A DNA stretch of 64,000 nucleotides. Origin: Sphingopyxis terrae subsp. terrae NBRC 15098. GTDB taxonomy: Bacteria; Pseudomonadota; Alphaproteobacteria; Sphingomonadales; Sphingomonadaceae. Positions 12,324 to 27,075 of this stretch are shown here, piece after piece. The notes below the pieces were generated by a model. That model had not been told where the DNA came from and made no database searches. It saw only the letters and a list, made by a program, of their open reading frames with translations. The stretch lies in the NCBI RefSeq assembly GCF_001598815.1, contig NZ_BCZQ01000003.1, forward strand, positions 372,001 through 436,000, read 5' to 3'. How positions within the stretch are numbered: position 1 is the stretch's first letter; each line of letters opens with the position of its first letter. The position numbers and the translations under genes are program-made.

Positions 12324-12776
12324 TCAGCCAGCGATCATAATACCATGCGCTACCATAAGCGCAAGCAGCGCGTCTATTGCCGCACGCGCTTCCAGGTCGA
12401 TCGTCGTCCCCCCTTCGGGATTCGCAATAGCCATGGGTACAGTCCATTCGGAGCCGTTGAACCACAGCGCGGCACCATCGCTGATCCGTCTTATCCGCAT
12501 TCCGGGAGAGGGCGCGACAAACCGCCAACCGCCCGCGGTCCAAAGCGCCAGCCGGCCCGCCTCGCCGGACCATTCGCCGATGGCGGCTTCATCCACGATC
12601 CAGCAATCGCCCTCGGCAGGATCTTCAGGCGGCGTCGCCAGCGGCCCATCGACGACGGCGGCGTGAAGCAGCGCGTCGATCAGGACGAGCGCCTCGTTAT
12701 GCGTCGTCTCCTTCTGCGCTTGCGCCACCGACAGCATGGGCAGGGCAAAGCGCGGGGTCTGCAGATTGTCCGACAT
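12324..12776 (-). CDS. DUF2793 protein at the end of the GTA-like cluster
   Basis: A 150-residue DUF2793 protein, a family found with phage or GTA tail genes in sphingomonads and rhodobacters and thought to belong to tail-tip or fibre structures. The N-terminus MSDNLQTPRFALPMLSVAQAQKE, with its AQAQKE helix, is typical and is followed by Trp/Gly-rich strands. It begins 27 bases after the tail-tip protein gene, with a good AAAGGATT ribosome site, and is the last gene of the minus-strand structural cluster. The role is inferred from position and family. Confidence 0.85.
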   Translation of the reverse strand: MSDNLQTPRFALPMLSVAQAQKETTHNEALVLIDALLHAAVVDGPLATPPEDPAEGDCWIVDEAAIGEWSGEAGRLALWTAGGWRFVAPSPGMRIRRISDGAALWFNGSEWTVPMAIANPEGGTTIDLEARAAIDALLALMVAHGIMIAG

Positions 12777-12803: not shown

Positions 12804-14978
12804 TCAGGCGAGCGGGAGGACAAGCGGCGGGGAAAGACCGAAGTCGCCGACCTGCCGAACGGAAAGCGCGCTTCGCGCCGGTATTACCGCCAGCAGCGCG
12901 GCATCCAGAACCAGTCGGGATTCAGGGCAATCCCACGGGCCGAGCCCCGGCACCGCGGGCACGAGCATGACCTGCCACAGCTCGCGGACCTCGCCGATCG
13001 GCAGATCGACCTGATCGCGCCAGCCGTGATCGGCACGGCTGCGCCGCACCCAGCGCGCCTCGATCGCGCCATCGGCAGCCGCGCGCATATATCCATGCAC
13101 CGGCGACAGCGGCCGCAGCGCCCGCGCCGCCGACGGCACCGGCACATCGACCAGTTCAACGCCGCCCCGCCGCGCCCATTCGACGCTTGCCTCGCCGCTT
13201 TCGGCCTGCCGCGCCATATCGTCGGGAAGCAGCCACAGCGCGGCATCATCGAGCAGGACGAACGGCTCGCCCGCGCCGTGCGCCATCGTATCGTCGGTCC
13301 CGGCAAGACCGCGAAGGAGCCCGGTCAGCCGCCACAATCCTCCCCCCAACGAGTCGGCGGTACCGAACTGCAGCAATTCACCGCCGACCATCGCCCTGTT
13401 TCCGCCGGCCAGCAGCGCCGCGTCGCCAATCGATTCGAGCGTCATCACGGGATTGGTCAGTACAACGTCCAGCCCGTTCACCCGGTCGAACAGGCCTACG
13501 GGCCCCGGCTCCAGCGGCGCGGCCAGCGCCCCCAACGCCAGTGCCGGCCGCGCCGTCCCGATCGCGACCGGCTCTATATCGGCGCCGCCCAGAAACCATA
13601 GATCGGCGCCGCGCCAGCCGTCATTCTCGCCGGCCGCGGCAACCAGCACCCGCGGCGCCGTGGCGGCCGCGCCCATGCTGGGCAGATCGAACAGCCGCAC
13701 CACGCCCTCGCTATCGGGCCAGTCGGGGGCAACGACGGGCGCGCCGGGGTCCGCAGCAAGCTCGGCCACGCTCGGCGGCCGATAGCGCCGCAGCTCGACG
13801 CGGACCGACGCCGCTTTCACGCTGCGCGACGCGATGCGCCAGACACCCCCGTCCGGAAGCGCGATCAGCCCGCCAACGGGCAGGGCCAGCGCCGCCAGAT
13901 CCGCTTCCCAGACGATCGTTTCGCGGCCATCGGTCGCCGAGGCCGCGAGCCGCTGCGCCAGCGCGCGGGCCGAACCGGCGGCAAGCACGGCGGGCAAATC
14001 CATCCGGTCCTCGCGCGCACCTCCGCCGGCGACGATCGCCATCTGCTGACCAAGTTGATAGTCGCGCTCGGGCTCGTAATGGCGCAGCCGGATCGAAGCA
14101 GGCAGCGCCCCCAGCGGCATGCGCCGATGCTCGACGATGTCGGACGCGCTCCAATCGCGTCGGCTTTCGGAATAGGCATCCGGTGCAAGGATGGGCTGCT
14201 CGGCCTCTGCCGGCAGAAGCCGCCAGTCCGCCGACGCGCTGCGCAGCCGGACGGCATCGGCGTCGAACAGCGGCGCCAGCGCGTCGCGCGCGCGATCGCC
14301 CGACGCGGCATAGCCGCCAAAGGGCCAAACCCCCGCCGCACGGCCTGGATCGCCCAGCAATATGTTGGCCACGCTTCCGGCATCGACGGTCCCCGCATCG
14401 GCTTCGACCTCGAAGGTCAGCGATGGAATCCGGTTGCCGAAGGCCGCCAGTTCCAGCTCCTCGAACACGACATAGGCCAATCCGCGAAGCGCCGACGCCG
14501 AAGCCGGGCCCAGCGCCGCGGCAATCAGCGGATCGACGGCCTGATCCTCGCCCCCGTCATGGCTCCTAAAGACACAGCGTTCGCGAAAGCTCCCGCTCGC
14601 CCCGCGCAGCAGATTGCCATCGGCCCAGATGCGCCGCACCGCCCGGATCGGCCGCGAGGACAGCGCGACCGCCAGCGATACCGCATAGCTATATTCGGTC
14701 ACCGAAGGCCGCCCCTTGCCGCCGCCGCTCTTCGTGCGCCGCTCGATCAGGTCGGTTGCCCAAATGACGCTGCCCGCAACGCGCATCGTGCCGAACAGCT
14801 TGGGAATCTGCTGGCCATAGGTCGATGCCTGCACCTTCAGGTCGGCCAGCCGCGGCCCCTCGCGCCCCTTGGGCTTGAAGATCGCCGCGTCGACCTGCTG
14901 GCCGACGGCGGCGCCGATCGCCGCGCCGACCGGCCCGCCAACGATGCCGCCGACGACCGTCAGCACCAGAGTCGCCAT
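12804..14978 (-). CDS. GTA-like tail tip / host-specificity protein (rcc01698 type, short form)
   Basis: Homologue of the large tail-tip (megatron) protein of the Rhodobacter capsulatus GTA. It begins MATLVLTVVGGIVGGPVGAA, a Gly/Ala-rich N-terminus shared with rcc01698, and continues with the phage tail domain (VPKLFGTMR-like strip QIPKLFGTMRVAG near residue 55). At 724 residues it is much shorter than the roughly 1,300 of the Rhodobacter protein; the TIM-barrel insert seems absent. The start at 14978 has a GGAG site and directly follows the NlpC/P60 stop; the open frame upstream is overlap with that gene. It would form the fibre-bearing tail tip. Confidence 0.85.
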   Translation of the reverse strand: MATLVLTVVGGIVGGPVGAAIGAAVGQQVDAAIFKPKGREGPRLADLKVQASTYGQQIPKLFGTMRVAGSVIWATDLIERRTKSGGGKGRPSVTEYSYAVSLAVALSSRPIRAVRRIWADGNLLRGASGSFRERCVFRSHDGGEDQAVDPLIAAALGPASASALRGLAYVVFEELELAAFGNRIPSLTFEVEADAGTVDAGSVANILLGDPGRAAGVWPFGGYAASGDRARDALAPLFDADAVRLRSASADWRLLPAEAEQPILAPDAYSESRRDWSASDIVEHRRMPLGALPASIRLRHYEPERDYQLGQQMAIVAGGGAREDRMDLPAVLAAGSARALAQRLAASATDGRETIVWEADLAALALPVGGLIALPDGGVWRIASRSVKAASVRVELRRYRPPSVAELAADPGAPVVAPDWPDSEGVVRLFDLPSMGAAATAPRVLVAAAGENDGWRGADLWFLGGADIEPVAIGTARPALALGALAAPLEPGPVGLFDRVNGLDVVLTNPVMTLESIGDAALLAGGNRAMVGGELLQFGTADSLGGGLWRLTGLLRGLAGTDDTMAHGAGEPFVLLDDAALWLLPDDMARQAESGEASVEWARRGGVELVDVPVPSAARALRPLSPVHGYMRAAADGAIEARWVRRSRADHGWRDQVDLPIGEVRELWQVMLVPAVPGLGPWDCPESRLVLDAALLAVIPARSALSVRQVGDFGLSPPLVLPLA

Positions 14979-14979
14979 A

Positions 14980-15393
14980 TCATTTCTCCAAATCAGAAAG
15001 CCGCCAGCGGCGCGCGCTCCGCACCGCCCGATCGAACGGCGCCTCGACCACGCGGCGCAGCCCGGCATGGGCATGAACGATCCCCGCCGGACCGATCAGC
15101 GCCAGGTGAAACTGCCGCGCGGGCAGCGCGATCAGCGCGACATCGCCGACCCGCGCCGCGTCGACCGTTTCGCCAAAGCCGGCCGCCGTCAGTCCCGCCG
15201 CGACCCGCCCGCCGCTCCATCCGCGCAGCGGATAGGCGGCGGGCGCAACCAGCATCCGTCCGGCTTCGGCATAGGCCGCCCAGACCAGCCCGACGCAATC
15301 GACGCCCGTGCGCGGGTCGCGCCCCTGCGGGACGAACCGCGCCCCGACCATCGCGCGCGCGGCTGCAAAGGCGCGCGCGCCAAGCTCATCCAC
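14980..15393 (-). CDS. NlpC/P60 family peptidase of the GTA-like tail
   Basis: A 137-residue NlpC/P60 cysteine peptidase, equivalent to rcc01697 of the Rhodobacter GTA, expected to cut cell-wall peptides during DNA delivery. The catalytic Cys lies in GVDCVGLVW (about residue 33) and the His in the QFHLALIGPAGIVHAH region (about 100-113). Size and order, between the DUF2163 and tail-tip genes, fit the GTA plan exactly. It overlaps the DUF2163 gene by 8 bases and ends one base before the tail-tip start. All catalytic positions are present. Confidence 0.9.
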   Translation of the reverse strand: MDELGARAFAAARAMVGARFVPQGRDPRTGVDCVGLVWAAYAEAGRMLVAPAAYPLRGWSGGRVAAGLTAAGFGETVDAARVGDVALIALPARQFHLALIGPAGIVHAHAGLRRVVEAPFDRAVRSARRWRLSDLEK

Positions 15394-16219
15394 CGGGATA
15401 GCGCGTCAGCAGATCATTGCCCGGCAGATGTGCCTCGCCGCGGAAATTGACCGCGTTGGCAAAGCGGCTGCGACAGGTCGCCAATTGCTTGTCGCACCCC
15501 TCGATCAATCGCACCCGCGCGGGCAGGGGCGGAAGCAGCGGCGGCATCTCGGCGAGCGTCAGCACCGCGCCCGCCGCCGCAATCACCGGAGTGCGCAGCC
15601 CGCACGCTGCCCCTTCCAGCCAGCACAGCTCGCCGAACGCCATCGTGCCGGGCGGCGGCGCGGCATCGATCGTTACCTCGCGCCCGTCGATCGCCACGAT
15701 GCGGCGCGCATGGGTCAGCGGCGCCAGATTGATCCGGCACGCGGGGTCGCCCAGCGCCGCGCGGCACGATGGCGATGTCGCCGGACAGACGGGCCGGTCG
15801 AGCATCTGCATAATGCCCTGCAATTCGGCCGCAAAAGCGCTCCCGCGCCGTTCGATCGCGCCCAGCGTCCCCCGCGCCACCGTCACCGGCGCCACCTCGG
15901 GCGCCGTCCAGTCGGTCACGAACAGCGTCAGTGCCGCGCCGTCCCAGCGCCCCGCATCCAGGTCGCGCGCCGCAATCGCATCGCTGCTGATCGCGCCTTC
16001 AAGGTCCATCGTCGACGCATCCAGACTGTCGCTCGTTTCGATCGCCGAGGGCTTCATCCCCGGCGCCGCGCGATAGGGAACGCTATCGATCAACAGGTCG
16101 CGGTCGTGCGACGTCAGGCCCAGCACCACCCCGTCGCGCCGGGACAGGCGCCAGCACCACGCCAGCGTCACCACTTCGGCGCGCAGCCATGCCGGCGCGG
16201 CTTCGGCCTCGCTCACCAT
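15386..16219 (-). CDS. GTA-like tail hub protein, DUF2163 (rcc01696 type)
   Basis: A 277-residue DUF2163 phage protein, equivalent to the baseplate hub protein rcc01696 of the Rhodobacter GTA. Recognisable strips are LTSHDRDL, SAIETSDSLDASTMDLEGAI and the cysteine-bearing PSCRAALGDPACRINL; the last includes conserved cysteines that bind an iron-sulfur cluster or metal in tail hub proteins. It starts inside the last codons of the DUF2460 gene (7-base overlap) and overlaps the peptidase gene downstream, the tight packing usual for this operon. Confidence 0.88.
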   Translation of the reverse strand: MVSEAEAAPAWLRAEVVTLAWCWRLSRRDGVVLGLTSHDRDLLIDSVPYRAAPGMKPSAIETSDSLDASTMDLEGAISSDAIAARDLDAGRWDGAALTLFVTDWTAPEVAPVTVARGTLGAIERRGSAFAAELQGIMQMLDRPVCPATSPSCRAALGDPACRINLAPLTHARRIVAIDGREVTIDAAPPPGTMAFGELCWLEGAACGLRTPVIAAAGAVLTLAEMPPLLPPLPARVRLIEGCDKQLATCRSRFANAVNFRGEAHLPGNDLLTRYPGG

Positions 16220-17658
16220 GGCGCCCGCACCTCGATCAGCGGCACGCTCGCAATCTCGCCCGCCAGAAAGGTCGCGCAGCTGACCTCCAGCCGGTCATCG
16301 GCAAAGCGCACCGGCACGTCGAACAGAAAGCCCGCCGTAACAGCGGCCCCAACCGCGGGGGCATCATCCAGCAGCACCGCGCCCTCGCCCGTCACAACAA
16401 AGGCCGCCGTCTCGACGCCGCCCACCGCGACGCGCACGCTTCCTGCGACGGGCAGGCGGATCGCCCGTTCCTGTTCGGCATCGCCCACGCCATAATGTTT
16501 GACGAGCGCGAACAGCCGCGTTTCGCCGTCGCCCTCTCCCAGCAACTGGTCACCCGGTCCGGGTGCGCCGCCATCGCCCGCCGAAGCATGATCGAACGGA
16601 TCACGAAAGCGAAAGGCGCGCGCCGCCCCGCGCCGCGCCCGAAAGAATTCGGCCAGCGTCCGCACATCGGCTTCGGAGCGTATGCCCGGCCCCGCGTCAT
16701 AGCGCATCCGGGCTTCCGCCCATTCGCTCGCGCGCTGTTCGTGGCCCGAAGCCGAGCTGACGATCTGCGTCGAAAATTCGGTCGCCACCATCGCCTCGCG
16801 CCCGATCGCCAGCGGAAAATCCACCGCATCGAAAGCCTGCACCGCATCCTCCCCGTCAAAACAAGTGAAGCCGTCGCGCGCGACCTGCGGCAACGCCCAG
16901 ATAAAGGCGCGCGCTACACCCGCTGCCTCTGCCGCGTCGGCGGCCGCGGCGATCGCCGCCCACTGGGCGCGGTCGTCGGCATCGAGAACGAAGCCCGCGA
17001 AATACTGCTGCGCCGACACCGGATACCCCAGCCGCACCGCCATCGCGGCGCGCGCGCCCGCACTTGCGGCGCCGCGTCCCGTCGTCACCCAGTCATAATC
17101 CTCAAGCTGCAGCACATCGAACGCCGGTGCCGCCCAGCCGAGCGGCACATTGGCGCGGCGCAGTTCGGGCGCCGCGGGATCGAGCACGCTCGGCAGATAG
17201 ACGAGCAGATGGCTCCGGAAATCGCTCGCCCCCGCCGCATCGCGCGCTGCCGCCAACAGCGCTGCAGTCGATGCCGCCAGCAGCGCCCCCAATGCGTCGA
17301 GCATCGCGCATTGCCCGGCATCGAGCGCGCCGCGGACATCGGGAATCGCGACGCTCGCGCTCCCCAATGCCGCCGTCGTCGCCGCGTCATAGACGCAGAG
17401 CCGCCCTGCGCCGGCGTCCCACCACCAGGGCTCGCCGACCTGGAACCGCACCGGCAAACCGGCCTCCACCGCCAGTGCGACAAGGGCGCGCGCCACCAGT
17501 TGCAACCACCCCATCGCCTCGGCGTGGGCGGGCGACAACAGGGTCGATGGCGGTTCCCAGCCCGTCAGCGCAGGGTTCCCCTCGCTATCGCGCTGCTTCC
17601 AGTCCGCGGGGCAATAGGCATCGAATAATTCGTAGGAGAGCGACCAGATGAGCCCCAA
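16213..17658 (-). CDS. TIM-barrel/DUF2460 tail protein, probably 5'-truncated
   Basis: The C-terminal 200 residues are a complete DUF2460 domain (STQIVSSASGHEQRASEWAEARMRYD; FFRARRGAARAFRFRDPFDH), the distal tail protein of GTAs (rcc01695 type). The N-terminal 270 residues look like part of a TIM barrel (VRFQVGEPWWW, FDVLQLEDYDWV, AFIWALPQV), as in non-contractile tail sheath proteins. There is no ATG near the start: the frame is open from a TGA at 17752-17754, the first possible start is a TTG at 17658 without a ribosome site, and family-like sequence (PLNAPCAAWH) lies upstream of it. The beginning of the gene therefore seems deleted, and it may be a pseudogene despite the long open frame. 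Confidence 0.7.
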   Translation of the reverse strand: MGLIWSLSYELFDAYCPADWKQRDSEGNPALTGWEPPSTLLSPAHAEAMGWLQLVARALVALAVEAGLPVRFQVGEPWWWDAGAGRLCVYDAATTAALGSASVAIPDVRGALDAGQCAMLDALGALLAASTAALLAAARDAAGASDFRSHLLVYLPSVLDPAAPELRRANVPLGWAAPAFDVLQLEDYDWVTTGRGAASAGARAAMAVRLGYPVSAQQYFAGFVLDADDRAQWAAIAAAADAAEAAGVARAFIWALPQVARDGFTCFDGEDAVQAFDAVDFPLAIGREAMVATEFSTQIVSSASGHEQRASEWAEARMRYDAGPGIRSEADVRTLAEFFRARRGAARAFRFRDPFDHASAGDGGAPGPGDQLLGEGDGETRLFALVKHYGVGDAEQERAIRLPVAGSVRVAVGGVETAAFVVTGEGAVLLDDAPAVGAAVTAGFLFDVPVRFADDRLEVSCATFLAGEIASVPLIEVRAPW

Positions 17659-17894
17659 CCCGGCGGCGGCACATCCGGCTGCAAAGGCGCGGTGCCATGC
17701 TGCGCACGGCGCGTTGAGCGGGCCGCCCGCGACATCATGCCGCCGCCGCCATCATCGTCGCCGCGCCAGCCGGCCAGCACTGCCGCCACCTCGGCAGGCG
17801 TCGCGGCCCAGAATTCGCCGGGGCGCCAGCCGCAGACGCGCGCCATCACGCCCGCCAGCGCCAGCGCGCCGGGGGCCAGCCGATCGTCGGCCAC
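17565..17894 (-). CDS. GTA-like tail assembly chaperone (rcc01693 type) with a foreign C-terminus
   Basis: Residues 1-45 (from GTG 17894, ADDRLAPGALALAG...CGWRPGEFWAATPAEV) match the small tail assembly chaperone made before the tape measure in GTA clusters, normally about 60 residues. After a Gly/Asp-rich junction near 17740-17755 the frame reads on for nearly 60 residues through the DUF2460 gene in the wrong frame, down to 17565. The native end and the whole tape-measure gene expected next are missing. The GTG overlaps the end of the rcc01692-type gene region with one base between. Whether the hybrid is functional is doubtful. Confidence 0.65.
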   Translation of the reverse strand: MADDRLAPGALALAGVMARVCGWRPGEFWAATPAEVAAVLAGWRGDDDGGGGMMSRAARSTRRAQHGTAPLQPDVPPPGWGSSGRSPTNYSMPIAPRTGSSAIARGTLR

Positions 17895-17895
17895 C

Positions 17896-18210
17896 TCATC
17901 GCCCCTGCAATATCTGCCCGAGCAGCAGGCGCAGCGCCGGCGTCGCACCCGCCAGCCCGGCGGCAACCACCGCCTCACCCACCGCCTCGCGGGTCAGCGC
18001 GGCGGGCCGCTCGGCGATACAGTGCCAGAACAGCGTCGCCATCTCGCCCAGCGCCAGCCGCCCGTCCGCCGCCCGCTCGACCAGCGCGAACAGCGGGCCA
18101 AGCTCCGCCTCGGCCGCGACCAGCGCGCCGAAACTCGGACGCAGCACATGGGTCGCTCCGCCGATCCGCAACTCTCCCTCGCCGCGCAAGGCGTTCGCCG
18201 CCGCGCTCAC
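17896..18210 (-). CDS. GTA-gp10 family tail protein (rcc01692 type)
   Basis: A 104-residue protein of the GTA-gp10 / phage TAC_11 family: starts MSAAANALRGEGELRIGG and contains the family strip LRPSFGALVAAEAELGPLF. It is assigned a role in tail tube formation or chaperoning. In GTA clusters it always sits between the major tail protein and the small chaperone, as here; it overlaps the major tail protein stop by four bases. The sequence looks intact. Confidence 0.85.
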   Translation of the reverse strand: MSAAANALRGEGELRIGGATHVLRPSFGALVAAEAELGPLFALVERAADGRLALGEMATLFWHCIAERPAALTREAVGEAVVAAGLAGATPALRLLLGQILQGR

Positions 18211-18614
18211 AGGCTCGCCACCGCGCCGCTCGATTCCAGGTTCAGCGTGTAATTGCGCTCACCATTATAATCGCCCGCATAGTCGAGCCGCGTGACCAGG
18301 AACCGGCCGCGCAGCCGCTCGCCGCTTTCGAAGCTCAGCTCATAATCGTCGATCGCCCCCGACAGCGCATGGCCGCGCAGCCGAATTTCGGCGTCGGAGC
18401 CGGTAAAGATTCCCGCCGCGCTCACCGACACCGATCGCACCCCGGCGCCCGACAGCAGCTCGCGCCACCCGCCCGAATCCTTGGTCGTCACATTCACCGC
18501 CTCGCCGTTCACCGACATTTGCGTCGTCCGCAAACCCGCAACGGTGCGATAGGCCGGCGGCGTTTCGCCGTCGCCGATCTTCAGCAGAAAGGCGCTCCCA
18601 TTTTCGATAGCCAT
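18207..18614 (-). CDS. Major tail protein, TP901-1 family (rcc01691 type)
   Basis: A 135-residue TP901-1-type major tail protein that would polymerise to form the tail tube. Typical strips are GSAFLLKIGDG, VAGLRTTQMSVNGEAVNVTTKDSGGWRELL cut into the usual beta pattern, and DYAGDYNGERNYTLNLESSG at the end. Length equals the family norm. The ribosome site GAGGAGATG is good. Upstream only 49 bases separate it from a gene on the opposite strand, so this and the remaining tail genes need their own promoter or can no longer be expressed with the head genes. Confidence 0.92.
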   Translation of the reverse strand: MAIENGSAFLLKIGDGETPPAYRTVAGLRTTQMSVNGEAVNVTTKDSGGWRELLSGAGVRSVSVSAAGIFTGSDAEIRLRGHALSGAIDDYELSFESGERLRGRFLVTRLDYAGDYNGERNYTLNLESSGAVASL

Positions 18615-18663: not shown

Positions 18664-18999
18664 ATGCTTGTTTTTTCCATTCTTCTCGCTGCCATGGCGC
18701 CGTCGCCCGCTGCCGCCGTCGACAATTCGCGCGCGGTCTTCACCAAATGCCTGCGCGACCACATGAAGAAGTCGCTCGAGGCAAAGATGGGCGAAGCCGA
18801 ATATGAACTCGCGCTCAAGGAAGCGTGCGGCACCGAACGCGATGCGTTCCGCAACGCGGTGATCGCGCTCGATCGCGCCGACGGCGACACTGCCGCCGAA
18901 GCGGCCGAGGACGCCGATTCGCAGGTCGAGGATTACCACTCGACCTTCATCGACAAGTTCAAGGACTACACCGAAACCAAGACGATGCCCGCCGACTAG
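18664..18999 (+). CDS. Secreted small protein of unknown function, inserted in the GTA-like cluster
   Basis: I do not recognise this 111-residue protein. It has a signal peptide (MLVFSILLAAMAPSPAAA), then an acidic helical domain of about 90 residues with two cysteines (TKCLRDH and KEACGTE) that could form one disulfide, so it is probably periplasmic. It has a good ribosome site (GGGGAG, 7 bases before ATG). It is the only plus-strand gene within the 15-kb structural cluster and lies between the major tail protein and the DUF3168 tail terminator, with a palindromic repeat behind it. It may be a passenger (moron) gene. Confidence 0.75.
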   Translation: MLVFSILLAAMAPSPAAAVDNSRAVFTKCLRDHMKKSLEAKMGEAEYELALKEACGTERDAFRNAVIALDRADGDTAAEAAEDADSQVEDYHSTFIDKFKDYTETKTMPAD

Positions 19000-19223: not shown

Positions 19224-19619
19224 CTAACCATCGCCAACCAGGCAGCGGCATCGCAGCACCATCTCGTGCCGCCAGCCGCCGTCGCGCCCGAAGCGCGTTC
19301 GCGTCCGTTCGACCCGCGCGCCCACCACCGTCCAGCCGTCGGCGCCGCCGCGCAGCGTCGCGGCGATCGCCTCGATCCGCGCTGCCGTCGCACCATCGAC
19401 CGCGCCCGCGCCGTGCACCGCCAGCGTCAGGCGCACCTCGCGTCCCGCGCGGTCCTTGGTTCCCCAGTCACGCGCCTCGACCGCGTCGAGCGCGACGAAT
19501 GGCGCGGTCGCCCGCGCCGGCACGCCGTCGAATATCCCGTGGACCAGCCCCGCCAGCTCCGCGTCGGCCTGCAACAGCGCCAATGTCCGCGCACGCACCG
19601 CTGCCTCCGCGCCGCTCAT
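19224..19619 (-). CDS. Tail terminator, DUF3168 (rcc01690 type)
   Basis: A 131-residue DUF3168 protein, equivalent to the tail terminator of the Rhodobacter GTA, which caps the tail tube at the head end. Recognisable parts are the helix AAVRARTLALLQADAELAGLVHGI, the strip APFVALDAVEARDWGTKD and the end RTRFGRDGGWRHEMVLRCRCLV. The ATG at 19619 overlaps the connector gene stop (ATGA), so translation is coupled. The open frame upstream is the shadow of the connector gene. Normally a head-closure (stopper) gene would precede it; none is found. Confidence 0.87.
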   Translation of the reverse strand: MSGAEAAVRARTLALLQADAELAGLVHGIFDGVPARATAPFVALDAVEARDWGTKDRAGREVRLTLAVHGAGAVDGATAARIEAIAATLRGGADGWTVVGARVERTRTRFGRDGGWRHEMVLRCRCLVGDG

Positions 19620-20164
19620 GCCGCACCGCCCAGCGTCATCCGCCGCCAGGGTTGCCACAGCGCCGCGATGGCCGCCGGCGGCGTCGCCGGGGCGCCGTCG
19701 CGCGCATCGTGCAGATGCTGCGTCATGCGCACGATGCCCTGGCGGATCGCCTCGGGAATCCCGTTCGCCTCGGCGGCGATGCCGGCGCGGTAGGACAGGC
19801 GCGCGCGCACCGCGCCGCTCGTCTGGTGAAGCGTCACCCGCGCGGTGCCGTCGCGGCCGATCACCGCATCCCATGCGTCGGCCGCCAGCACCGCCTCCCC
19901 CCCGTCAATCCCGATCAGCGCGACCGCATCGACCGCCACGACGGGCCGCACCCGTGGCACCAGCGGCGCACCGTTTATCGGCAGCACTTCCTCCGCCGCG
20001 CGCTCGATCAACCACTGGCCGACAAAGGCTTCGCAGATATTGGTCGCCGCGCGCACCAGTCCGGCGACCACGGCATCGTCGATCGTCGGGCCCAGCCGCA
20101 GCCAGCCGCGCGCCTCGTTCAGGCTCACCGGGCTCTCGCCCGGCGTCACGCTCTGCATCGTCAT
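19616..20164 (-). CDS. Head-tail connector protein, gp6-like (rcc01688 type)
   Basis: A 182-residue gp6-like head-tail connector that would bind under the portal. The N-terminus (SVTPGESPVSLNEARGWLRL) and the helix AATNICEAFVGQWLIER are typical; the C-terminal extension GIPEAIRQGIVRMTQHLHDAR is also shared with GTA members. The start at 20164 follows GGAGGAG and overlaps the stop of the adaptor gene upstream (ATGA); a second ATG two codons on is possible. Its own stop overlaps the DUF3168 start. Confidence 0.87.
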   Translation of the reverse strand: MTMQSVTPGESPVSLNEARGWLRLGPTIDDAVVAGLVRAATNICEAFVGQWLIERAAEEVLPINGAPLVPRVRPVVAVDAVALIGIDGGEAVLAADAWDAVIGRDGTARVTLHQTSGAVRARLSYRAGIAAEANGIPEAIRQGIVRMTQHLHDARDGAPATPPAAIAALWQPWRRMTLGGAA

Positions 20165-20442
20165 CGCTCCTCCACCCGCACCGTCATCGATCGCTCGTCG
20201 ATCTGACCGTCGCTCAGCGTGACGCGGTTCGTCACCCGATAGACATGGCCGGCGATCCCGCCCGCCAGCGTCACCGCCGCCTGCTCCAGCTCGTGCGTCT
20301 GGGCGGCGATTGTAACCCCGCCGGGCTCGTCGGGCGTTGCCAGCCATTCGCTCGCGACCAGCGCCTGCCCCTCGGGATAGGCGGCGCCCCATTCGAATGC
20401 GAAGTCGACCCGCGTTCCGGGGTCTTTGACAATCATTGTCAC
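20161..20442 (-). CDS. Phage fibre-tail adaptor-like protein
   Basis: A 93-residue protein resembling the phage fibre-tail adaptor family: KDPGTRVDFAFEW at the N-terminus and the immunoglobulin-like end GHVYRVTNRVTLSDGQIDERSMTVRV. I start at GTG 20442, seven bases after AAGGA; ATG 20436 is an alternative. It sits directly after the fibre protein and a 50-codon gene, and overlaps the connector gene. Together these look like a fibre-attachment cassette rather than standard GTA genes. Confidence 0.72.
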   Translation of the reverse strand: MTMIVKDPGTRVDFAFEWGAAYPEGQALVASEWLATPDEPGGVTIAAQTHELEQAAVTLAGGIAGHVYRVTNRVTLSDGQIDERSMTVRVEER

Positions 20443-20458: not shown

Positions 20459-20611
20459 TCAGGGCTTGCGCACGATGACGCGCCGGGGCCGGTCGCGCGC
20501 GATGGTCATTTCGGTCTGCCGCGCGGCAGGCGCGGGTCCGCCCCATGCCGCGGCAAGGTCTCGGCGCGCCGCATCGGCAATCGCGCGCGAAGCGAGGGCG
20601 CTCCCGATCAT
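20459..20611 (-). CDS. 50-residue protein coupled to the fibre gene
   Basis: A short frame starting at ATG 20611 that overlaps the fibre gene stop (ATGA) and ends 17 bases before the adaptor gene, so translation is probably coupled on both sides. The product is basic and alanine/arginine-rich, beginning MIGSALASRAIADAARRDLA and ending in an Arg-rich tail. I know no family for it; a fibre assembly chaperone would fit by position, but this is only a guess. Confidence 0.6.
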   Translation of the reverse strand: MIGSALASRAIADAARRDLAAAWGGPAPAARQTEMTIARDRPRRVIVRKP

Positions 20612-22329
20612 GCCGTCTCCATCGCGGCGATCCGCGCCTCCTGCGCGGCGATCAGGAACAGCGAAAGCTGGTCGGGGCGAATACCGAACCTGTCCCCGGC
20701 GGGCGCCGCGCCATCTGCGCCGCCATCCCAGCGGTCATAACAAAGAAAGGCATAGCGGCTGTCGGGCGTGGCCTCCGGGACCAGCGGATCGATCAGGCCC
20801 TCGTCGGCCATGATCGCCCACACCGTCTGCGCGCGCACGCCGAAATGCAGCCGCGCCCCGGCGGCGCCCTTTTCGACAATGGCCGCGTTCCATTGATAGA
20901 AGCCGAGTTCGAGGGCGATCCGGCGCGCCGCCGCCATCTCCGGCACCGTCAGCGCGCCGCGCCACGTCTTTTCGCGTGCGTCGGACGTGTTGATCGATCC
21001 GGTCGCGGCATACAGCGTGCTCGCGCGGTTCGCCGCCCCGCCCAGCGGCAGGGCATTGTCGGTCGAAGGAAAGAAGGATCCGGTCGATGCGGACACGTTC
21101 CACTGCCCGCCCGCACCGGCCTGAAGACTGAGCGCGACGCCGGAGGGCGTCACCATCTTCGACGCCCATAATTCGGACCATCGGTTGGTCGCAGATCCGA
21201 AGGACTGCGTGTTGTTTCCGGCGGGGCGCAGCGCGCCGCCGGTCTCCAGAACCACCCGCTCGACATTGTTGCACCTGAGCGCCAGCCCATGCGCGGTCGA
21301 GGTGCCGACGGTCATGCCGCTCGCGGTGGTATAGAGAAACCCCCGCACCGTGTCCGATGCGCCGTACAGGGTGATCTGCGAACCGGTCGGGCCGGTCATG
21401 TGCAGATTGCGATAGCCGCCGAAATTCTCAGGCGTTGTCGTGCCGATGCCGACATTGCCGGCGCTGCTGATCGCGACGCTGTCGACGCCATTGTTCAGAA
21501 ACTGGTGCGACGACGCCGCGCCGGTATCATATTGCATCGTCCCCGAACTGCTGATCCGCACCGATGCCGACCCGGCGCTGGCAACCCCGAACCGCCCGGC
21601 GCTCGTCTGGACGTCCAGCTTGTTGACGGGATCGATGCCGATGCCGACATTGCCCCCGGCCGTGACGCGGACGCGCTCGGTTCCGCCCGTCGCAAGCGCG
21701 ACGATATTTGCGGCGGGACGATAAAGGCCCGTGTCGGGATCGCTCGCGAACGACACCGACGGCTCGGCGGCACTTCCGTCGACACCGGCGAGGGCCGCGC
21801 CCGCAAGCACCCGTCCACCGGCATCACGATACGCAAGCGTCGCGATCGGGATGTTCACCCAATCCGCGCCCCGCCGCACCGTGATCATGTCGCCGGCTTC
21901 ACCGACGGGCACGGCCTCGTGCGTCGTCGACAGCGGTTGTTTGCCGTCCAGCGCGTCACCGAGCGCCGTCACCGCGTCGCCGACGCTCGCCATTTCGGCC
22001 GCGACCATCGCCTGGGCTTCGAACCAGTCGGCGGCAACGGTCAGCGCGATCGTCTTCAGGCCGGGGGCGAAATCGACGCGGGCACCGCCGTCCGACGACG
22101 CCGCGATCGCTGCGCGCACCAGACGTCCGGCAGAATCGAGATGGCCGGTGCCCACCTCCCACTGGTCGGGCTGCGCCACGCCGGCAATCGTATAATGGAA
22201 ATCTCTATCGACAGGCACGGTCCCCGCGAAACGGCGATGGCCGGGCACCGCGCCGCTCGGCGTCAGCGGGCCGGTCCCGCCCTCGTGGCACAGCTCGCGC
22301 ACCAGGTCGGCGAAAAAGGGGGTCGGCAT
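20608..22329 (-). CDS. Phage tail fibre protein with C-terminal S74 chaperone domain
   Basis: A 573-residue fibre/spike protein. The N-terminus (MPTPFFADLVRELCHEGGTGPLTPSG) would attach to the particle. The middle is a series of GNVGIG-type beta repeats (about 220-300), as in phage fibres. The C-terminus from about residue 450 (INTSDAREKTW, LGFYQWN, HFGVRAQTVWAIM) is a peptidase S74 intramolecular chaperone, which helps trimerise the fibre and then cuts itself off. The catalytic SDA strip is present. It lies between capsid and connector genes, an odd place for a fibre. The start at 22329 follows AAAGGATGG. Confidence 0.85.
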   Translation of the reverse strand: MPTPFFADLVRELCHEGGTGPLTPSGAVPGHRRFAGTVPVDRDFHYTIAGVAQPDQWEVGTGHLDSAGRLVRAAIAASSDGGARVDFAPGLKTIALTVAADWFEAQAMVAAEMASVGDAVTALGDALDGKQPLSTTHEAVPVGEAGDMITVRRGADWVNIPIATLAYRDAGGRVLAGAALAGVDGSAAEPSVSFASDPDTGLYRPAANIVALATGGTERVRVTAGGNVGIGIDPVNKLDVQTSAGRFGVASAGSASVRISSSGTMQYDTGAASSHQFLNNGVDSVAISSAGNVGIGTTTPENFGGYRNLHMTGPTGSQITLYGASDTVRGFLYTTASGMTVGTSTAHGLALRCNNVERVVLETGGALRPAGNNTQSFGSATNRWSELWASKMVTPSGVALSLQAGAGGQWNVSASTGSFFPSTDNALPLGGAANRASTLYAATGSINTSDAREKTWRGALTVPEMAAARRIALELGFYQWNAAIVEKGAAGARLHFGVRAQTVWAIMADEGLIDPLVPEATPDSRYAFLCYDRWDGGADGAAPAGDRFGIRPDQLSLFLIAAQEARIAAMETA

Positions 22330-22385
22330 GGCAGGGCCATCCTTTCGAATGTAGCTATAATGTCGGTGTGTCGTGCCGGCGGGTA

Positions 22386-22431
22386 GGCGCCCGGCCCGTC
22401 CCGAAAGGGAAGGGAGCCGGGACCGGGCGCC
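22386..22431 (-). terminator. Strong hairpin after the major capsid gene
   Basis: A 9-bp stem GGCGCCCGG/CCGGGCGCC (22386-22394 with 22423-22431), extended by GTCCC/GGGAC inside, lies just after the capsid gene stop. No T-run follows. It may stabilise capsid mRNA or attenuate reading into the fibre cassette. Confidence 0.55.
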
Positions 22432-22448
22432 CTCGCGCACCAGCCGCT

Positions 22449-23591
22449 TTAGCTGGCGGCGAACTTCAACAGCTTGATGGCGTTCGAATCGATGATCGCA
22501 CCGCCCACCCTTTTGGTTGCATAGAAATGCACGAAAGGCTTGTTGCTGAACGGATCGCGCAGGATCCGCGTCTCACCGCGGTCGGCGATCAGATAGCCGG
22601 CGCGAAAATTGCCGAAGGCGACCGACAGGCTGTTCGCGGCCACATCGGGCATATCCTCGGCTTCGATGACCGGATAGCCGAGCAGCGTCGCCGCCCGCCC
22701 TTCGACCATCCCCGGCTGCCAGACGAAAGCGCCGTCGCTCGTCTTGAACTTGCGGATGCGCGCCAGCGTATCGCTGTTCATCACCCAGCATGCCCCCTGC
22801 CGGTATGGCGCCTTCAGCGCATGGACCAGCTCGACCAGCTTGTCCTGCGGGTTCGACGCGGCAAAGCCGCCCGCCGCACCCGATGCCAGATATTGCAGCG
22901 TCCCGAAGGCGCGCGCGCTGTCGGTCTCGTTCGTCGCGGCATAGGACAGGAATCCCTTGGGACGGTTCGTGCCGTTGCCGGTCACGAAGGCCGCACCTTC
23001 GGCCACCGCGAACTCGCGGCCCAGCTCCCCCGCCAGCCAGTCCTCGACATCGAACATCGCATCGTCGAGCATCGCCTGGCTCGCCGCCGGATTGGCGTAG
23101 AGTTCGCCCGAAGGCGGCGCGATTTCGGCAAAGCTGCGCGTCGCCGTCTCGGGCCGCGCCGCCGTCTCGCCGACCCAGCCCGTCGCCGTCGATCCGGTCG
23201 CGACCAGCTTGCGGTATCCGCTCGTCCCCGTCTGCACGACGGTGGCGATCGACCGGATCGGCGATAGCGCCTTCAGCGTCGCCGCGATGCTGCCGTCGAT
23301 TTCGCGCGGCACCGCATAGCCGCCCTCGCCGCCGCTCGCGCCCGCCAGGCTCTTCATCTCGACGCCCGCATCGATCCCGCGCCGCAGATAGCGTTCGACA
23401 AAGGCGTCGCGCGCCGGATCGGCCGCTGCCTTCGCGCCGTCGAGCGGCAGCCGCGAGGCCGCCACCGCCTGCGCGTCGACCTGCGCCTTCAGCGCCGCTA
23501 CCGACGCCTTCAATTCGTCGACTGCCTCGGCCGCCAATACCGCATCGAACGCGCCGTCGAGCGCGTCGGCTTTCACTTCCATATCGTCCAT
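22449..23591 (-). CDS. Major capsid protein, HK97 family (rcc01687 type)
   Basis: A 380-residue HK97-fold major capsid protein that would form the icosahedral head. The first 100 residues are a charged alpha-helical delta domain (VDELKASVAALKAQVDAQ) normally removed by the prohead protease; the mature part begins near GASGGEGGYAVPREID. Typical strips follow: VGETAARPETATRSF, NRPKGFLSY and GYPVIEAEDMPDV. The start at 23591 has GAAGGAG upstream. It lies five bases after the protease gene, the standard order. Confidence 0.93.
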   Translation of the reverse strand: MDDMEVKADALDGAFDAVLAAEAVDELKASVAALKAQVDAQAVAASRLPLDGAKAAADPARDAFVERYLRRGIDAGVEMKSLAGASGGEGGYAVPREIDGSIAATLKALSPIRSIATVVQTGTSGYRKLVATGSTATGWVGETAARPETATRSFAEIAPPSGELYANPAASQAMLDDAMFDVEDWLAGELGREFAVAEGAAFVTGNGTNRPKGFLSYAATNETDSARAFGTLQYLASGAAGGFAASNPQDKLVELVHALKAPYRQGACWVMNSDTLARIRKFKTSDGAFVWQPGMVEGRAATLLGYPVIEAEDMPDVAANSLSVAFGNFRAGYLIADRGETRILRDPFSNKPFVHFYATKRVGGAIIDSNAIKLLKFAAS

Positions 23592-23596
23592 GCTTG

Positions 23597-24046
23597 TCAC
23601 TCCTTCACCAAATCCACCGCAATCACCCGCGCCAGCGGCTGCATCGGCTGGGCGACCAGGCTCACTTCGGCGAGGTCGAGCGCCAGCAGCTCGCGCGGAC
23701 GCACCCCGCGCGCCGCGCGCACCCGATAGCCAAAGCTCAATCCGGTCAGCGCGCCGCGCTCGACCAGCCGCGCCGCCGTGGGATGCGTCACCCGCCCAAC
23801 GACGCGCAGCCCGCGCGCATCCTCCGCCAGCGCCTCGATCGTCCCGACGACCGCACCGGGCCGATGCTGCCACAGCAAAGGCACCGCGCGCGCCGAACGC
23901 AAACTCGCCGCGAAAGCCCCGCTGCGCACGACATCGCCACCGCGATCGACCCGGTCGAACACCGAGGCATAGCCGGCGAAGCGTATCTCCCCCTCCCGCT
24001 CGCGGGAGGGGGTCGGGGGGAGGGAATGTTCGAAGGCCGCGCTCAC
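23597..24046 (-). CDS. HK97 family prohead protease (rcc01686 type)
   Basis: A 149-residue serine protease that trims the capsid scaffold domain. Visible are the strip RFAGYASVFDRVDRGGDVVRSGAF, the catalytic His in LLWQHRPG and the Ser in GLSFGYR. I start at GTG 24046, which overlaps the DUF6127 gene stop (GTGA); no ATG is suitable. Residues 8-20 (SLPPTPSREREGE) are encoded by a palindromic repeat that seems to have inserted in frame, just ahead of the conserved region. The core is intact, so activity may be kept. Confidence 0.85.
   Translation of the reverse strand: MSAAFEHSLPPTPSREREGEIRFAGYASVFDRVDRGGDVVRSGAFAASLRSARAVPLLWQHRPGAVVGTIEALAEDARGLRVVGRVTHPTAARLVERGALTGLSFGYRVRAARGVRPRELLALDLAEVSLVAQPMQPLARVIAVDLVKE
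23987..24024. repeat. GC-rich palindromic repeat inside the protease coding sequence
   Basis: CCCCTCCCGC and GCGGGAGGGG form a perfect 10-bp stem (23990-23999 with 24002-24011), followed by a GGGG-rich tail. The same CCCTCCCGC-type palindrome occurs twice at 27791-27911. Here it is translated as part of the prohead protease N-terminus. Confidence 0.8.
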
Positions 24047-24372
24047 TTCAGCAACCCCGGCAGCCCCATCTTCATCGCCAGCCCGACGACGAGCAGCGCC
24101 AACATCCCGCGCACCGCCCAGTCGACCGCCGCCTTCCACGCGCTCGTCTTCGCGTCGCGCCACGCGCCGAGCAGTTGGCGCAGGTCGCTAACATCGTCGC
24201 GCGCTGCCGCATCGGCGAGCCCCAGCCGCGCCAGCGCCCGCCGCGCCCCCAGCTCGCTCGCTTCCTCGACCAGCGCCCGCAGCGCCGCCGCGTCGGCGCT
24301 TCCGGCCGCACTCGTCCCAGCCCCCGTCCCAGCCAGCGCGATCAACCGCGCCAGCGCTTCATCCTCGTCCAT
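24043..24372 (-). CDS. DUF6127 family GTA-associated membrane protein
   Basis: A 109-residue DUF6127 protein. These small proteins lie between portal and prohead protease genes in GTA clusters (the position called g3.5). The N-terminal half is helical and acidic (MDEDEALARLIALAG); the C-terminus holds one membrane span (about 86-105, AVRGMLALLVVGLAMKMGL). The role is unknown. It overlaps the protease gene by four bases; 105 bases containing a palindromic repeat separate it from the portal gene. Confidence 0.85.
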   Translation of the reverse strand: MDEDEALARLIALAGTGAGTSAAGSADAAALRALVEEASELGARRALARLGLADAAARDDVSDLRQLLGAWRDAKTSAWKAAVDWAVRGMLALLVVGLAMKMGLPGLLK

Positions 24373-24477: not shown

Positions 24478-25584
24478 TCACGCCATGCCCAAAAGCGCCT
24501 TCTTCTCGTCGGCGGTCAGCCAGTCGGCTGCCGACACTTCGCGCCACAGCGCCATGCGGTCGTCGGCGAGCGCCGGCACCCGGTCGAGATCGACGCGCAG
24601 CGCCGCGTCGGCGAACCAGTCGCCCAGTCCTTGCGCCAGCGCGCCCAATATCTTCGCGCACAAGGGCAGCACCGTCAGCCGCCACAGCGCGCGATTGGCC
24701 TCGCGATAATTGGCATAGGTCGCATCGCCCGGCAGGCCGAGCAGCATCGGCGGCACCCCGAAGGCCATGGCGATCTCGCGCGCGGCGCTATGCTTCAACT
24801 CCAGAAAATCCATGTCGGCGGGCGACAGCGACAGCGCCTGCCATTTCAGCCCGCCTTCGAGCAGCAGCGGCCGCCCCGCATTGGCCCCGCCGGCAAAACT
24901 CTCGGCCAGTTCCTCGCGCAGCCGGTCGACCTGCTCGGCCGACAATGGCATCCCCTTGTCGCCCGGATCGTGGACCAGCGCCCCCGACGGCCGCGCCGCA
25001 TTTTCGAGCAGCGCCGCATTCCACTTCGCCGCCGCATTATGCGCCGCGATGGCGCCCGCCGCCGCGCCCAGGCACCCCGCGCCATAATGATCGTCGAGCG
25101 GGTGCAGCGCCTTGATGTGGATCAGCGCGGTGCGCCCGGCGCCATCCTCGGCCGCGAGCGCCACCGCCTCGCCGCCCGCCTTGTAGCGATAGGCGACCGG
25201 CCAGCCGCGCGCATCGGCCTCGACCGTCACCCGCTCGGGCCGCAGCGCATAAAGCTCCGCCGGCCGCCCCGCGGCGTCGCGCAAAATCTGCACATAGCCA
25301 TTGCCGTGCAGCAGCAATTGCGCCGCCAGCGTCTCGACCAGCCCCTGCCCGCCCGACGTCGCGGTCACAAGCGCCGCGAGCGCAGGATCGCCCGCCGCCA
25401 AAGGCGCCGCCCCCGCCGCCTCGGCCACCAGCCGCACCGACCGCTGCACGATCGCATTGCCCAGATAACCGGCCCGCACCTGCGCCTCCCACGACAGCGG
25501 CGCCGGCGCCGACCACGCCCCATACACCCGCGACAAAGCAGGCCGCGCAGCCCCCTGCGCGGCCTTCCGGCCAAACCAATTCAT
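24478..25584 (-). CDS. Phage portal protein, HK97 family (rcc01684 type)
   Basis: A 368-residue portal protein that would form the ring through which DNA enters and leaves the head. Family strips are GNAIVQRSVRLVAEAAGAAP, LLLHGNGYVQIL, LELKHSAAREIAMAFGVPPMLLG and ATYANYREANRALWR. Length is slightly below that of other GTA portals (about 390) but the core looks intact. A good AGGAGAATATC ribosome site precedes ATG 25584. A 111-base gap with a repeat lies between it and the terminase gene. Confidence 0.93.
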   Translation of the reverse strand: MNWFGRKAAQGAARPALSRVYGAWSAPAPLSWEAQVRAGYLGNAIVQRSVRLVAEAAGAAPLAAGDPALAALVTATSGGQGLVETLAAQLLLHGNGYVQILRDAAGRPAELYALRPERVTVEADARGWPVAYRYKAGGEAVALAAEDGAGRTALIHIKALHPLDDHYGAGCLGAAAGAIAAHNAAAKWNAALLENAARPSGALVHDPGDKGMPLSAEQVDRLREELAESFAGGANAGRPLLLEGGLKWQALSLSPADMDFLELKHSAAREIAMAFGVPPMLLGLPGDATYANYREANRALWRLTVLPLCAKILGALAQGLGDWFADAALRVDLDRVPALADDRMALWREVSAADWLTADEKKALLGMA

Positions 25585-25695: not shown

Positions 25696-27075
25696 TCACA
25701 TCCGCCGCACCCCCGGTTCCCGCCCTTTCCGCACCCCATCGAGCAGCGCCGCCAGCGCCCAAACGCACGCATCCGCCCGATCGGGCGAGCGCCCCGGCCC
25801 CGCATAGCCGCCGCCCACCTGCAGGCCGCAAAGCTGATCCTCCAGCGCGGCGAACGCCCCCGCATGCACCACCTGCCCGCGTTCGTATGCGAGCGCGACG
25901 GGTTCCGCGCGCCGCGCCTTGCCGACGCTCGCATGCACCGCCACCACGGGCAGCGTCACATCGGCCTGGCGCAGCGTCGCCGTCACCATCTCGCCGCCCA
26001 TATTGCTTTCGGCGACGATCCGGTCGGCGCCCCAGCGCGCCGCCGCAGCGGCGACCGCCTGCGCCCACAGCGCGGGCGGCGGCGTTTCGACGCTCGCATC
26101 CTCGACCACCGCCAGCCGCCCGTCGCGCAGCAGCGCCGCGACCACGATGCCGCAGGCATCGCCGTTCGTGCTCGCCGGCGGATCGACGCCGATGATCACC
26201 CGCGCCGGCTTGCCGATCGCATCGGTTTCGACCCGGCACCGCTCGATCAGCGCGCGGGTCCACAGCGCGCCCTCGACATCCTCCAGCATCTCGCCGTCCA
26301 ACTCCTGCCGACCGAGGCGCGTGCCGCCGTAATTTTCCAGCATCGCGCCAACGAAATTGGCGGGCAACCACGGATTGTCGCCTGTCCGGCCCCGCGTCTC
26401 GACCAGCCCCGACGCAGCCTTCACCCGCCGCATCGCCGCGCTGGTGCGCGGCGTCGTCGTCACCACGACGCGCGGCCGCTCGCCCAGTCGCAGTCCCATC
26501 ATCAGATTGTCCCACGCCGCCTCGCCGCGCCGCCATTTGGCGAGCTCGTCGCACCAGGCGGCATGATGTTCGGGGCCGCGAAGCTCCTCGCCCGCCTCTG
26601 CGGAATAGAGCGTCGCAATCGCGCCGCTGTGGAAACGCAGTTCGCGCCGGCCCGCAATCCAGCGCACCGGCTCGTGGCTGCGCGCCACCGCAATCAGCCC
26701 GCTCGGCCCCTCGATCATCACCCGCTGCGCGTCCGCGATCGTCGCGCCGACCAGCGCGAACCGCGCGCCGGGCGAGGATCGGGCAACCTCGCTCACCCAT
26801 TCGGCGCCCGCGCGCGTCTTGCCGAACCCGCGCCCCGCCTGGATCAGCCAGATGCGCCAATCTCCCGGCGGCTCGCGCTGGCCCTCATTCTCAAGTCCAT
26901 ACCATCGGTTTGCCATTTCACGGCGCTGTTCGACGGTCAGCGTTCGCAAAACCTGTCGGCGCTGCGCTTCCGTCAGCCGCTCCAGTTGCGACCATATCAT
27001 CTGCGACCAGGCACTCAGCCGCTGCGCCGTCCAGCCATTTGCGGCCTGCCGCCGCTTCATCTGGCGCGCCGTCAC
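25696..27075 (-). CDS. Terminase large subunit (rcc01683 type)
   Basis: A 459-residue DNA-packaging motor. The ATPase part shows Walker A AGRGFGKT (residues 80-87) and Walker B with catalytic acid AAWCDELAKW (about 170); the nuclease part shows IIGVDPPAS (about 292) and the late acidic strip RADACVWALAAL. All key residues are present. I start at GTG 27075, which overlaps the small-subunit stop (GTGA); ATG 27060 is possible. It is the second gene of the GTA-like cluster. Confidence 0.94.
   Translation of the reverse strand: MTARQMKRRQAANGWTAQRLSAWSQMIWSQLERLTEAQRRQVLRTLTVEQRREMANRWYGLENEGQREPPGDWRIWLIQAGRGFGKTRAGAEWVSEVARSSPGARFALVGATIADAQRVMIEGPSGLIAVARSHEPVRWIAGRRELRFHSGAIATLYSAEAGEELRGPEHHAAWCDELAKWRRGEAAWDNLMMGLRLGERPRVVVTTTPRTSAAMRRVKAASGLVETRGRTGDNPWLPANFVGAMLENYGGTRLGRQELDGEMLEDVEGALWTRALIERCRVETDAIGKPARVIIGVDPPASTNGDACGIVVAALLRDGRLAVVEDASVETPPPALWAQAVAAAAARWGADRIVAESNMGGEMVTATLRQADVTLPVVAVHASVGKARRAEPVALAYERGQVVHAGAFAALEDQLCGLQVGGGYAGPGRSPDRADACVWALAALLDGVRKGREPGVRRM

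Follow-up and report, generated by a model that had tools for sequence, protein, structure and literature searches.

Gene transfer agents (GTAs) kill the bacteria that produce them, and why bacteria keep GTAs is an open question. In RcGTA, the GTA of Rhodobacter capsulatus, a TIM barrel sits in the megatron. The tail channel of the RcGTA particle is filled by a trimer of the tape measure protein, and cryo-EM has also shown aberrant particles without one (PMC7296036). ComEC and DprA are required for receiving RcGTA DNA and co-evolve with the GTA genes (PMC10883770). According to one proposal set out in that paper, producers are undermined by non-producing recipients, and pseudogenised GTA lineages of other Alphaproteobacteria are treated there as possible recent cheaters (Kogay et al. 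2024, PMC10883770).

We analysed a stretch of 64,000 nucleotides of a Sphingopyxis genome, henceforth referred to as the window. An RcGTA-type head-tail cluster, recognized from its reading frames and from Pfam and NCBIfam matches, occupies 12.3 to 27.1 kb of the window on the minus strand. It comprises the terminase, portal and protease positions, the capsid, an S74 fibre, adaptors, the tail tube, gp10, the chaperone and a tail protein, followed toward the 3' end by the hub, a peptidase, a short megatron-like protein and a DUF2793 protein. The conserved head-tail gene set is present in RcGTA-like order, as judged by Pfam, NCBIfam and comparison with congeners, with some genes named by position only. 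Most congeners have GTA clusters, and in one of them, genome G013, the cluster has the same flanks. The features are the following:

25696-27075, minus strand: large terminase position (named by position), full length when compared with congeners
24478-25584, minus strand: portal position (named by position), full length when compared with congeners
24043-24372, minus strand: small protein at the gp3.5 position, which lies between portal and protease (named by position), open
23597-24163, minus strand: prohead protease position (named by position), open
22449-23726, minus strand: major capsid protein, full length (Pfam and congeners)
20608-22440, minus strand: variable fibre with a C-terminal S74 chaperone of endosialidase, open (Pfam)
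20161-20442, minus strand: small Gp77-like fibre-tail adaptor protein, full length (congener comparison)
19616-20317, minus strand: gp6-like adaptor position, full length (named by position, no Pfam match)
19224-19619, minus strand: tail completion gp17-like protein, open
18207-18614, minus strand: major tail tube protein, full length (Pfam and congeners)
17896-18210, minus strand: GTA gp10 (Phage_TAC_11), full length (Pfam and congeners)
17752-17894, minus strand: what remains of the tail assembly chaperone (TAC), with 47 of about 67 codons native; beyond them the frame runs out of register to 17565 (PF09550 and congeners)
17730-17766, no strand: deletion junction, about 1.42 kb missing (ends of matches in the DNA of relatives)
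16213-17751, minus strand: 3' part of the NCTSP/distal tail gene, with the TIM barrel from profile position 59 and a complete DUF2460 (Pfam)
15386-16219, minus strand: gp13 baseplate hub, full length (Pfam and congeners)
14980-15393, minus strand: gp14, full-length NlpC/P60-like peptidase (the Pfam match does not reach the cut-off)
12804-14981, minus strand: gp15, short megatron-like tail tip protein, full length (Pfam, NCBIfam and congeners)
12324-12776, minus strand: full-length DUF2793 protein encoded by the final gene of the cluster (congener comparison)

The fibre gene (20608-22440, minus strand) lies between the capsid and adaptor genes and was matched in 24 of 40 congener loci, where its middle is often absent. 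Within the cluster, the opposite strand carries a 111-codon open reading frame (18664-18999, plus strand), with a start that looks signal-peptide-like and no match in Pfam or NCBIfam. It is probably a separate working gene, because G013, whose cluster is shredded, retains it at 95% identity with a dN/dS of 0.14.

The tail tube, chaperone, distal tail, hub and tail tip genes belong to the same families as those of RcGTA. As in RcGTA, where the tape measure Rcc01694 and the distal tail protein Rcc01695 are encoded one after the other, the congeners have a short tape measure gene directly before the distal tail gene. Unlike RcGTA, this genus has NCTSP_N, a TIM barrel and the distal tail domain in one fused protein, a gp15 that matches the 1299-position megatron model in parts only, and a variable S74 fibre gene after that of the capsid. 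In the tail region of the window (12804-17751, minus strand), the TIM barrel is found in the distal tail protein, behind NCTSP_N in the full gene of the congeners, and the megatron-like gp15 has no TIM-barrel match in Pfam or NCBIfam. No paper on NCTSP with a TIM barrel was listed in our literature search. A further difference from RcGTA concerns this genome itself, in which the tape measure gene and the start of the NCTSP gene are deleted.

The lesion joins two broken genes, those of the chaperone and of the NCTSP/distal tail protein, out of frame. A preliminary description of this DNA had proposed that the chaperone frame passes directly into tail-gene sequence that is read in another frame, and this was confirmed by the reading frames and Pfam. 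From GTG 17894, the first 47 codons encode the chaperone (PF09550 is matched at positions 6-36 of 58 only), and the frame then continues out of register, through the TIM-barrel sequence, to a stop ending at 17565. The tail gene frame was likewise correctly described as open only from a TGA (17754-17752), with no ATG start and with family-like sequence upstream of its first possible start. The earliest ATG, GTG or TTG codon is TTG 17658, and the homology upstream of it corresponds to residues 266-320 of A2, our profile of the lost part of the tail protein. In Pfam searches this frame contains TIM-barrel_NCTSP (PF23845) from position 59 of 348 to the end and a complete DUF2460.

In the DNA of relatives, matches on the left side mostly extend as far as 17766-17736 and those on the right side mostly start from 17736-17730. 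A GGC run, a candidate microhomology, lies at the junction, and several relatives have GGC runs on both sides. For want of a very close intact relative, the breakpoints are placed within this range rather than to the base. Comparison with the congeners upholds the single deletion that had been proposed, although its position is slightly to the right of the suggested 17740-17755. The proposed loss of the chaperone end and of the whole tape measure gene also stands, but the "first half of the next gene" has to be replaced by NCTSP_N and TIM-barrel positions 1-58, with DUF2460 intact. Comparison with the congeners shows what the window lacks: the final third of the chaperone, all of the short tape measure gene, and the NCTSP_N domain with the first 58 of the 348 TIM-barrel positions.

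We compared 40 congener cluster regions, all selected for a match to the tail protein. They have the order of chaperone, tape measure and DUF2460 gene that the preliminary description had given for GTA clusters: a complete chaperone (median 67 aa, n = 34 of 40 loci) is followed by the tape measure and then by the tail protein. A complete tape measure of 176 to ~200 aa (about 190) lies between the chaperone and tail genes at 34 of the 40 loci (33 recognized by sequence pattern, plus L062). The other six comprise two broken clusters (G005 and G039) and four loci that run off contig ends. At the loci compared, the tape measure start overlaps the chaperone end. The protein was identified using PHROGs tape-measure profiles (best named family E 1.8e-11; the best PHROG is unannotated), and its match to the lambda tape-measure Pfam family is just under the cut-off. 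The full congener tail protein has about 775 aa and combines NCTSP_N (PF23844), the TIM barrel (PF23845) and DUF2460. At the 21 of 40 loci with both anchor motifs matched, the anchor-to-anchor length exceeds that of the window by a median of 1420 bp (range 1378-1720, including loci with an extra insert). Four loci (L032, L040, L045 and L048) carry an insert of about 175 bp between the tape measure and tail genes that looks like a dispersed repeat.

The preliminary description had also considered that close relatives might share the arrangement. A shared ancestral arrangement was ruled out by searching 79 congeners with a 761-bp query across the junction: among the matches listed, none joins both sides. 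The query has matches in 75 of 80 genomes, short chance matches included, and its halves match apart among the matches listed. Matches that overrun the junction coordinate without joining the sides were found in G017 (query 63-484), G048 (446-495) and G076 (446-504), the latter two being short and at unrelated places.

We searched the assembly for a replacement using a tape-measure profile (A1) built from 17 sequences. This profile has matches in 64 of 80 genus genomes, a set that includes the present one. In other genomes it also picks up distant frames resembling tape measures, and several have additional weak matches that look like prophage tape measures. It has no match in the assembly of this genome, which rules out, for the assembly, the tape-measure gene elsewhere that had been raised as a possibility. 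Another copy of the lost N-terminal part of the tail protein was not found in the assembly, in which profile A2 matches only at the residues adjoining the junction.

On the assembly, the GTA production genes of this genome are broken. We consider it very likely that the locus is an RcGTA-type GTA which a single deletion of about 1.42 kb has disabled recently, leaving a non-producer. The deletion would have removed the end of the chaperone, the whole tape measure gene and the start of the NCTSP/distal tail gene. Tails would then be unmade or non-functional, and DNA-transferring particles would not be expected. The break would have occurred late on this branch, and with comEC and dprA open the strain may still receive DNA. 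Particles with normal tails presumably cannot form. Particles of some kind may still assemble, since aberrant RcGTA particles without a tape measure have been seen (PMC7296036). We would place this state early in a course of decay that is already known.

An unlikely alternative is that the missing 1.4 kb are present in the strain and were lost in the assembly at a short GGC-rich sequence. The genome is a 62-contig draft with a GGC run at the junction, and the remaining genes look constrained, as they would in an intact cluster, so that the absence of stops reported below fits this explanation too. However, the junction lies within a 566-kb contig, the GGC run is just about a dozen bases long, and the assembly contains no other tape measure or NCTSP_N fragment.

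The age of the break was assessed by comparison with G013, a two-contig genome that is the nearest congener in an rpoB tree (68 genomes, FastTree, rpoB picked by an RpoB motif; some nodes are weakly supported). The rpoB regions are 99.5% identical and the cluster flanks about 95% identical at the nucleotide level. In G013, only scraps of the capsid, fibre, gp7/8, gp15 and DUF2793 genes are left; the cluster was broken by other deletions, and the whole stretch around the junction is gone. Flanking genes differ by a dS of 0.13-0.165, or about 0.075 per branch. We simulated neutral decay at this distance (d 0.075) for the 16 remaining cluster frames (13.8 kb, truncated tail frame included). The simulations gave 20 or 26 stops on average, depending on the model, and never fell below 10 in 200 runs, versus 0 observed. 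Fourteen frames (without the tail gene and gp7/8) have lengths as in relatives, the fibre being variable. We also polarised the amino-acid changes using 26-36 outgroup loci, with 30 of 74 differences remaining ambiguous. Fewer changes fall on the branch of this genome than on that of G013 for gp15 (3 vs 12), gp7/8 (1 vs 7) and the fibre (1 vs 12), and DUF2793 goes against this trend (5 vs 3).

Because there are no stops and most polarised changes lie on the G013 branch, the cluster was probably still constrained after the split from G013, and the loss in G013 looks separate from this one. The alternative of an inactivation dating back to the common ancestor, with the deletion as later damage, is very improbable. 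It would suit the fact that the clusters are broken in both genomes of the pair, for which parsimony on the rpoB tree alone counts one loss, and the absence of the junction stretch from G013 makes any former sharing unreadable; but it would require 13.8 kb of frames to have escaped the 20-26 expected stops and leaves the concentration of gp15, gp7/8 and fibre changes on the G013 branch unaccounted for. Returning to inactivation by the deletion itself, the break looks young, which agrees with the earlier view of a recently broken cluster whose other genes remain open. If all constraint ended with the deletion, the count of zero stops would confine it to roughly the final 15% of this branch (exp(-20.4 f) = 0.05), a bound that assumes equal branches and ignores indels.

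That the truncated cluster still works, with the DUF2460 part as a minimal distal tail protein resembling the short one of RcGTA and particles made without a tape measure, is hardly credible: DUF2460 is complete and its NCBIfam name is that of the Rcc01695 distal tail family, aberrant RcGTA particles without a tape measure exist (PMC7296036), and a cluster that is still useful would likewise show no stops, but a tape measure match is found in all 52 unbroken genomes among the 70 good ones (completeness ≥90%, contamination ≤5%; some matches are partial or interrupted), the truncated tail gene offers no ATG, GTG or TTG before TTG 17658, and the chaperone is truncated too.

At least 18 of the 70 good genomes have a cluster that is missing or interrupted by a large deletion (this genome, G005, G007, G010, G013, G014, G015, G020, G021, G030, G033, G034, G035, G039, G041, G064, G066 and G070). 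Genomes were called broken using five genome-wide queries (the tail protein, its N-terminal part, the tape measure, the portal and gp15) together with fetched loci; G015, G021 (a draft in 220 contigs), G035 and G066 were called from these searches only. Genomes with a frameshift or a single stop in a queried gene, which could be sequencing errors, were kept as unbroken (e.g., G029, G048, G067, G073 and G076 and, for gp15, G019, G042, G052, G054 and G060), as was G079, in which the tail gene stops at a contig end and gp15 was not found. In the rpoB tree, 17 of the broken genomes form 14 all-broken clades, to which G021 is added; this count takes loss as irreversible.

The broken clusters of congeners (G033, G039, G005, G041, G064, G070 and others) also carry large internal deletions, but their breakpoints differ from that described here and, in those mapped, more has been lost. 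In G070 (L129 12384-17223), portal to gp7/8 are gone and the tail genes are present. In G064 (L130 1-10496), terminase to capsid were not found upstream of the fibre, and the tail genes are present. The deletion in G033 (L119 2672-4132) has produced one 493-codon frame, in which residues 1-164 of the tape measure are joined in frame with the last part of gp15. The DUF2793 gene (12324-12776, minus strand), the last of the cluster, outlives most of it: matches occur in 73 of the 80 genomes. Of the 18 broken genomes, 16 have a match (only a weak one in G015), and in 11 the gene is free of stops over nearly its full length. Its persistence may reflect a function of its own or the OmpA-family gene next to it.

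Regarding the recipient genes, this genome has a ComEC domain in an open 792-codon frame and a DprA domain in an open 381-codon frame. In a search of the genus, the ComEC domain is absent from G010, G034, G035, G066 and the incomplete G072, and it is split over frames in G039 and in G056 (87% complete, with many split frames); in G037 it is split by contig ends, which was counted as intact. No DprA occurs in G013, G034, G035 or the incomplete G049 and G072. G066 has only a divergent relative of it. DprA is split in G010 and in the incomplete G074, and a stop interrupts it in G068, a genome with an unbroken GTA. In G039 it matches the DprA of this genome only to residue 232 of 298. The absence of dprA from G013 rests on the genome search, the dprA flanks of this genome having no match in 419 kb of G013. 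The ComEC of G013 has a stop 20 residues before its end.

At the level of these searches, a defect in comEC or dprA is found in 6 of the 18 broken genomes (G010, G013, G034, G035, G039 and G066) versus 1 of the 52 others (G068; Fisher p 0.0008, 70 good genomes). Counted by clade, with G021 as one, the proportions are 4 of 15 versus 1 of 52 (p 0.008). Kinship is only partly corrected in these tests, and the choice of genes followed the literature. Both genes are kept, at the same level, by 12 of the 18 broken genomes, including this one and G033. A frameshift in the ComEC of G033 was found in a closer look only and was left out of the 6; the frame-by-frame check of ComEC covered 20 of the 80 genomes, 12 of them broken.

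The decay of GTA clusters in the genus might follow a fixed order, with an internal deletion first, then shredding, and finally the loss of dprA or comEC, which would have little other use. This is a tentative reading, and we lean slightly against it. This genome would then stand at the first step, with about 1.4 kb lost and the rest intact. If the order holds, the maintenance of comEC and dprA here would depend on GTA reception, and the genus would provide a natural time series for testing cheater models.

Like the pseudogenised alphaproteobacterial clusters reported previously (PMC10883770), this broken cluster belongs to a lineage that has producers among its relatives; here, the lesion, an age bound and a shredded sister cluster are described in addition. 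None of the papers listed in our literature search deals with the decay of GTAs in Sphingopyxis. The cheater idea and broken GTA clusters have been published before, and the present analysis adds the closely bounded event, the ruined sister and the pattern of co-loss. The tally for the genus (at least 18 of 70 genomes broken, in 14 clades plus G021, and recipient-gene defects in 6 of 18 versus 1 of 52) is a first quantitative version of this idea for one genus. A lineage apparently caught just after losing production, with a shredded sister and congeners in many states, makes the proposal testable with respect to the frequency at which production is lost, the persistence of receiving and the later decay of the recipient genes.
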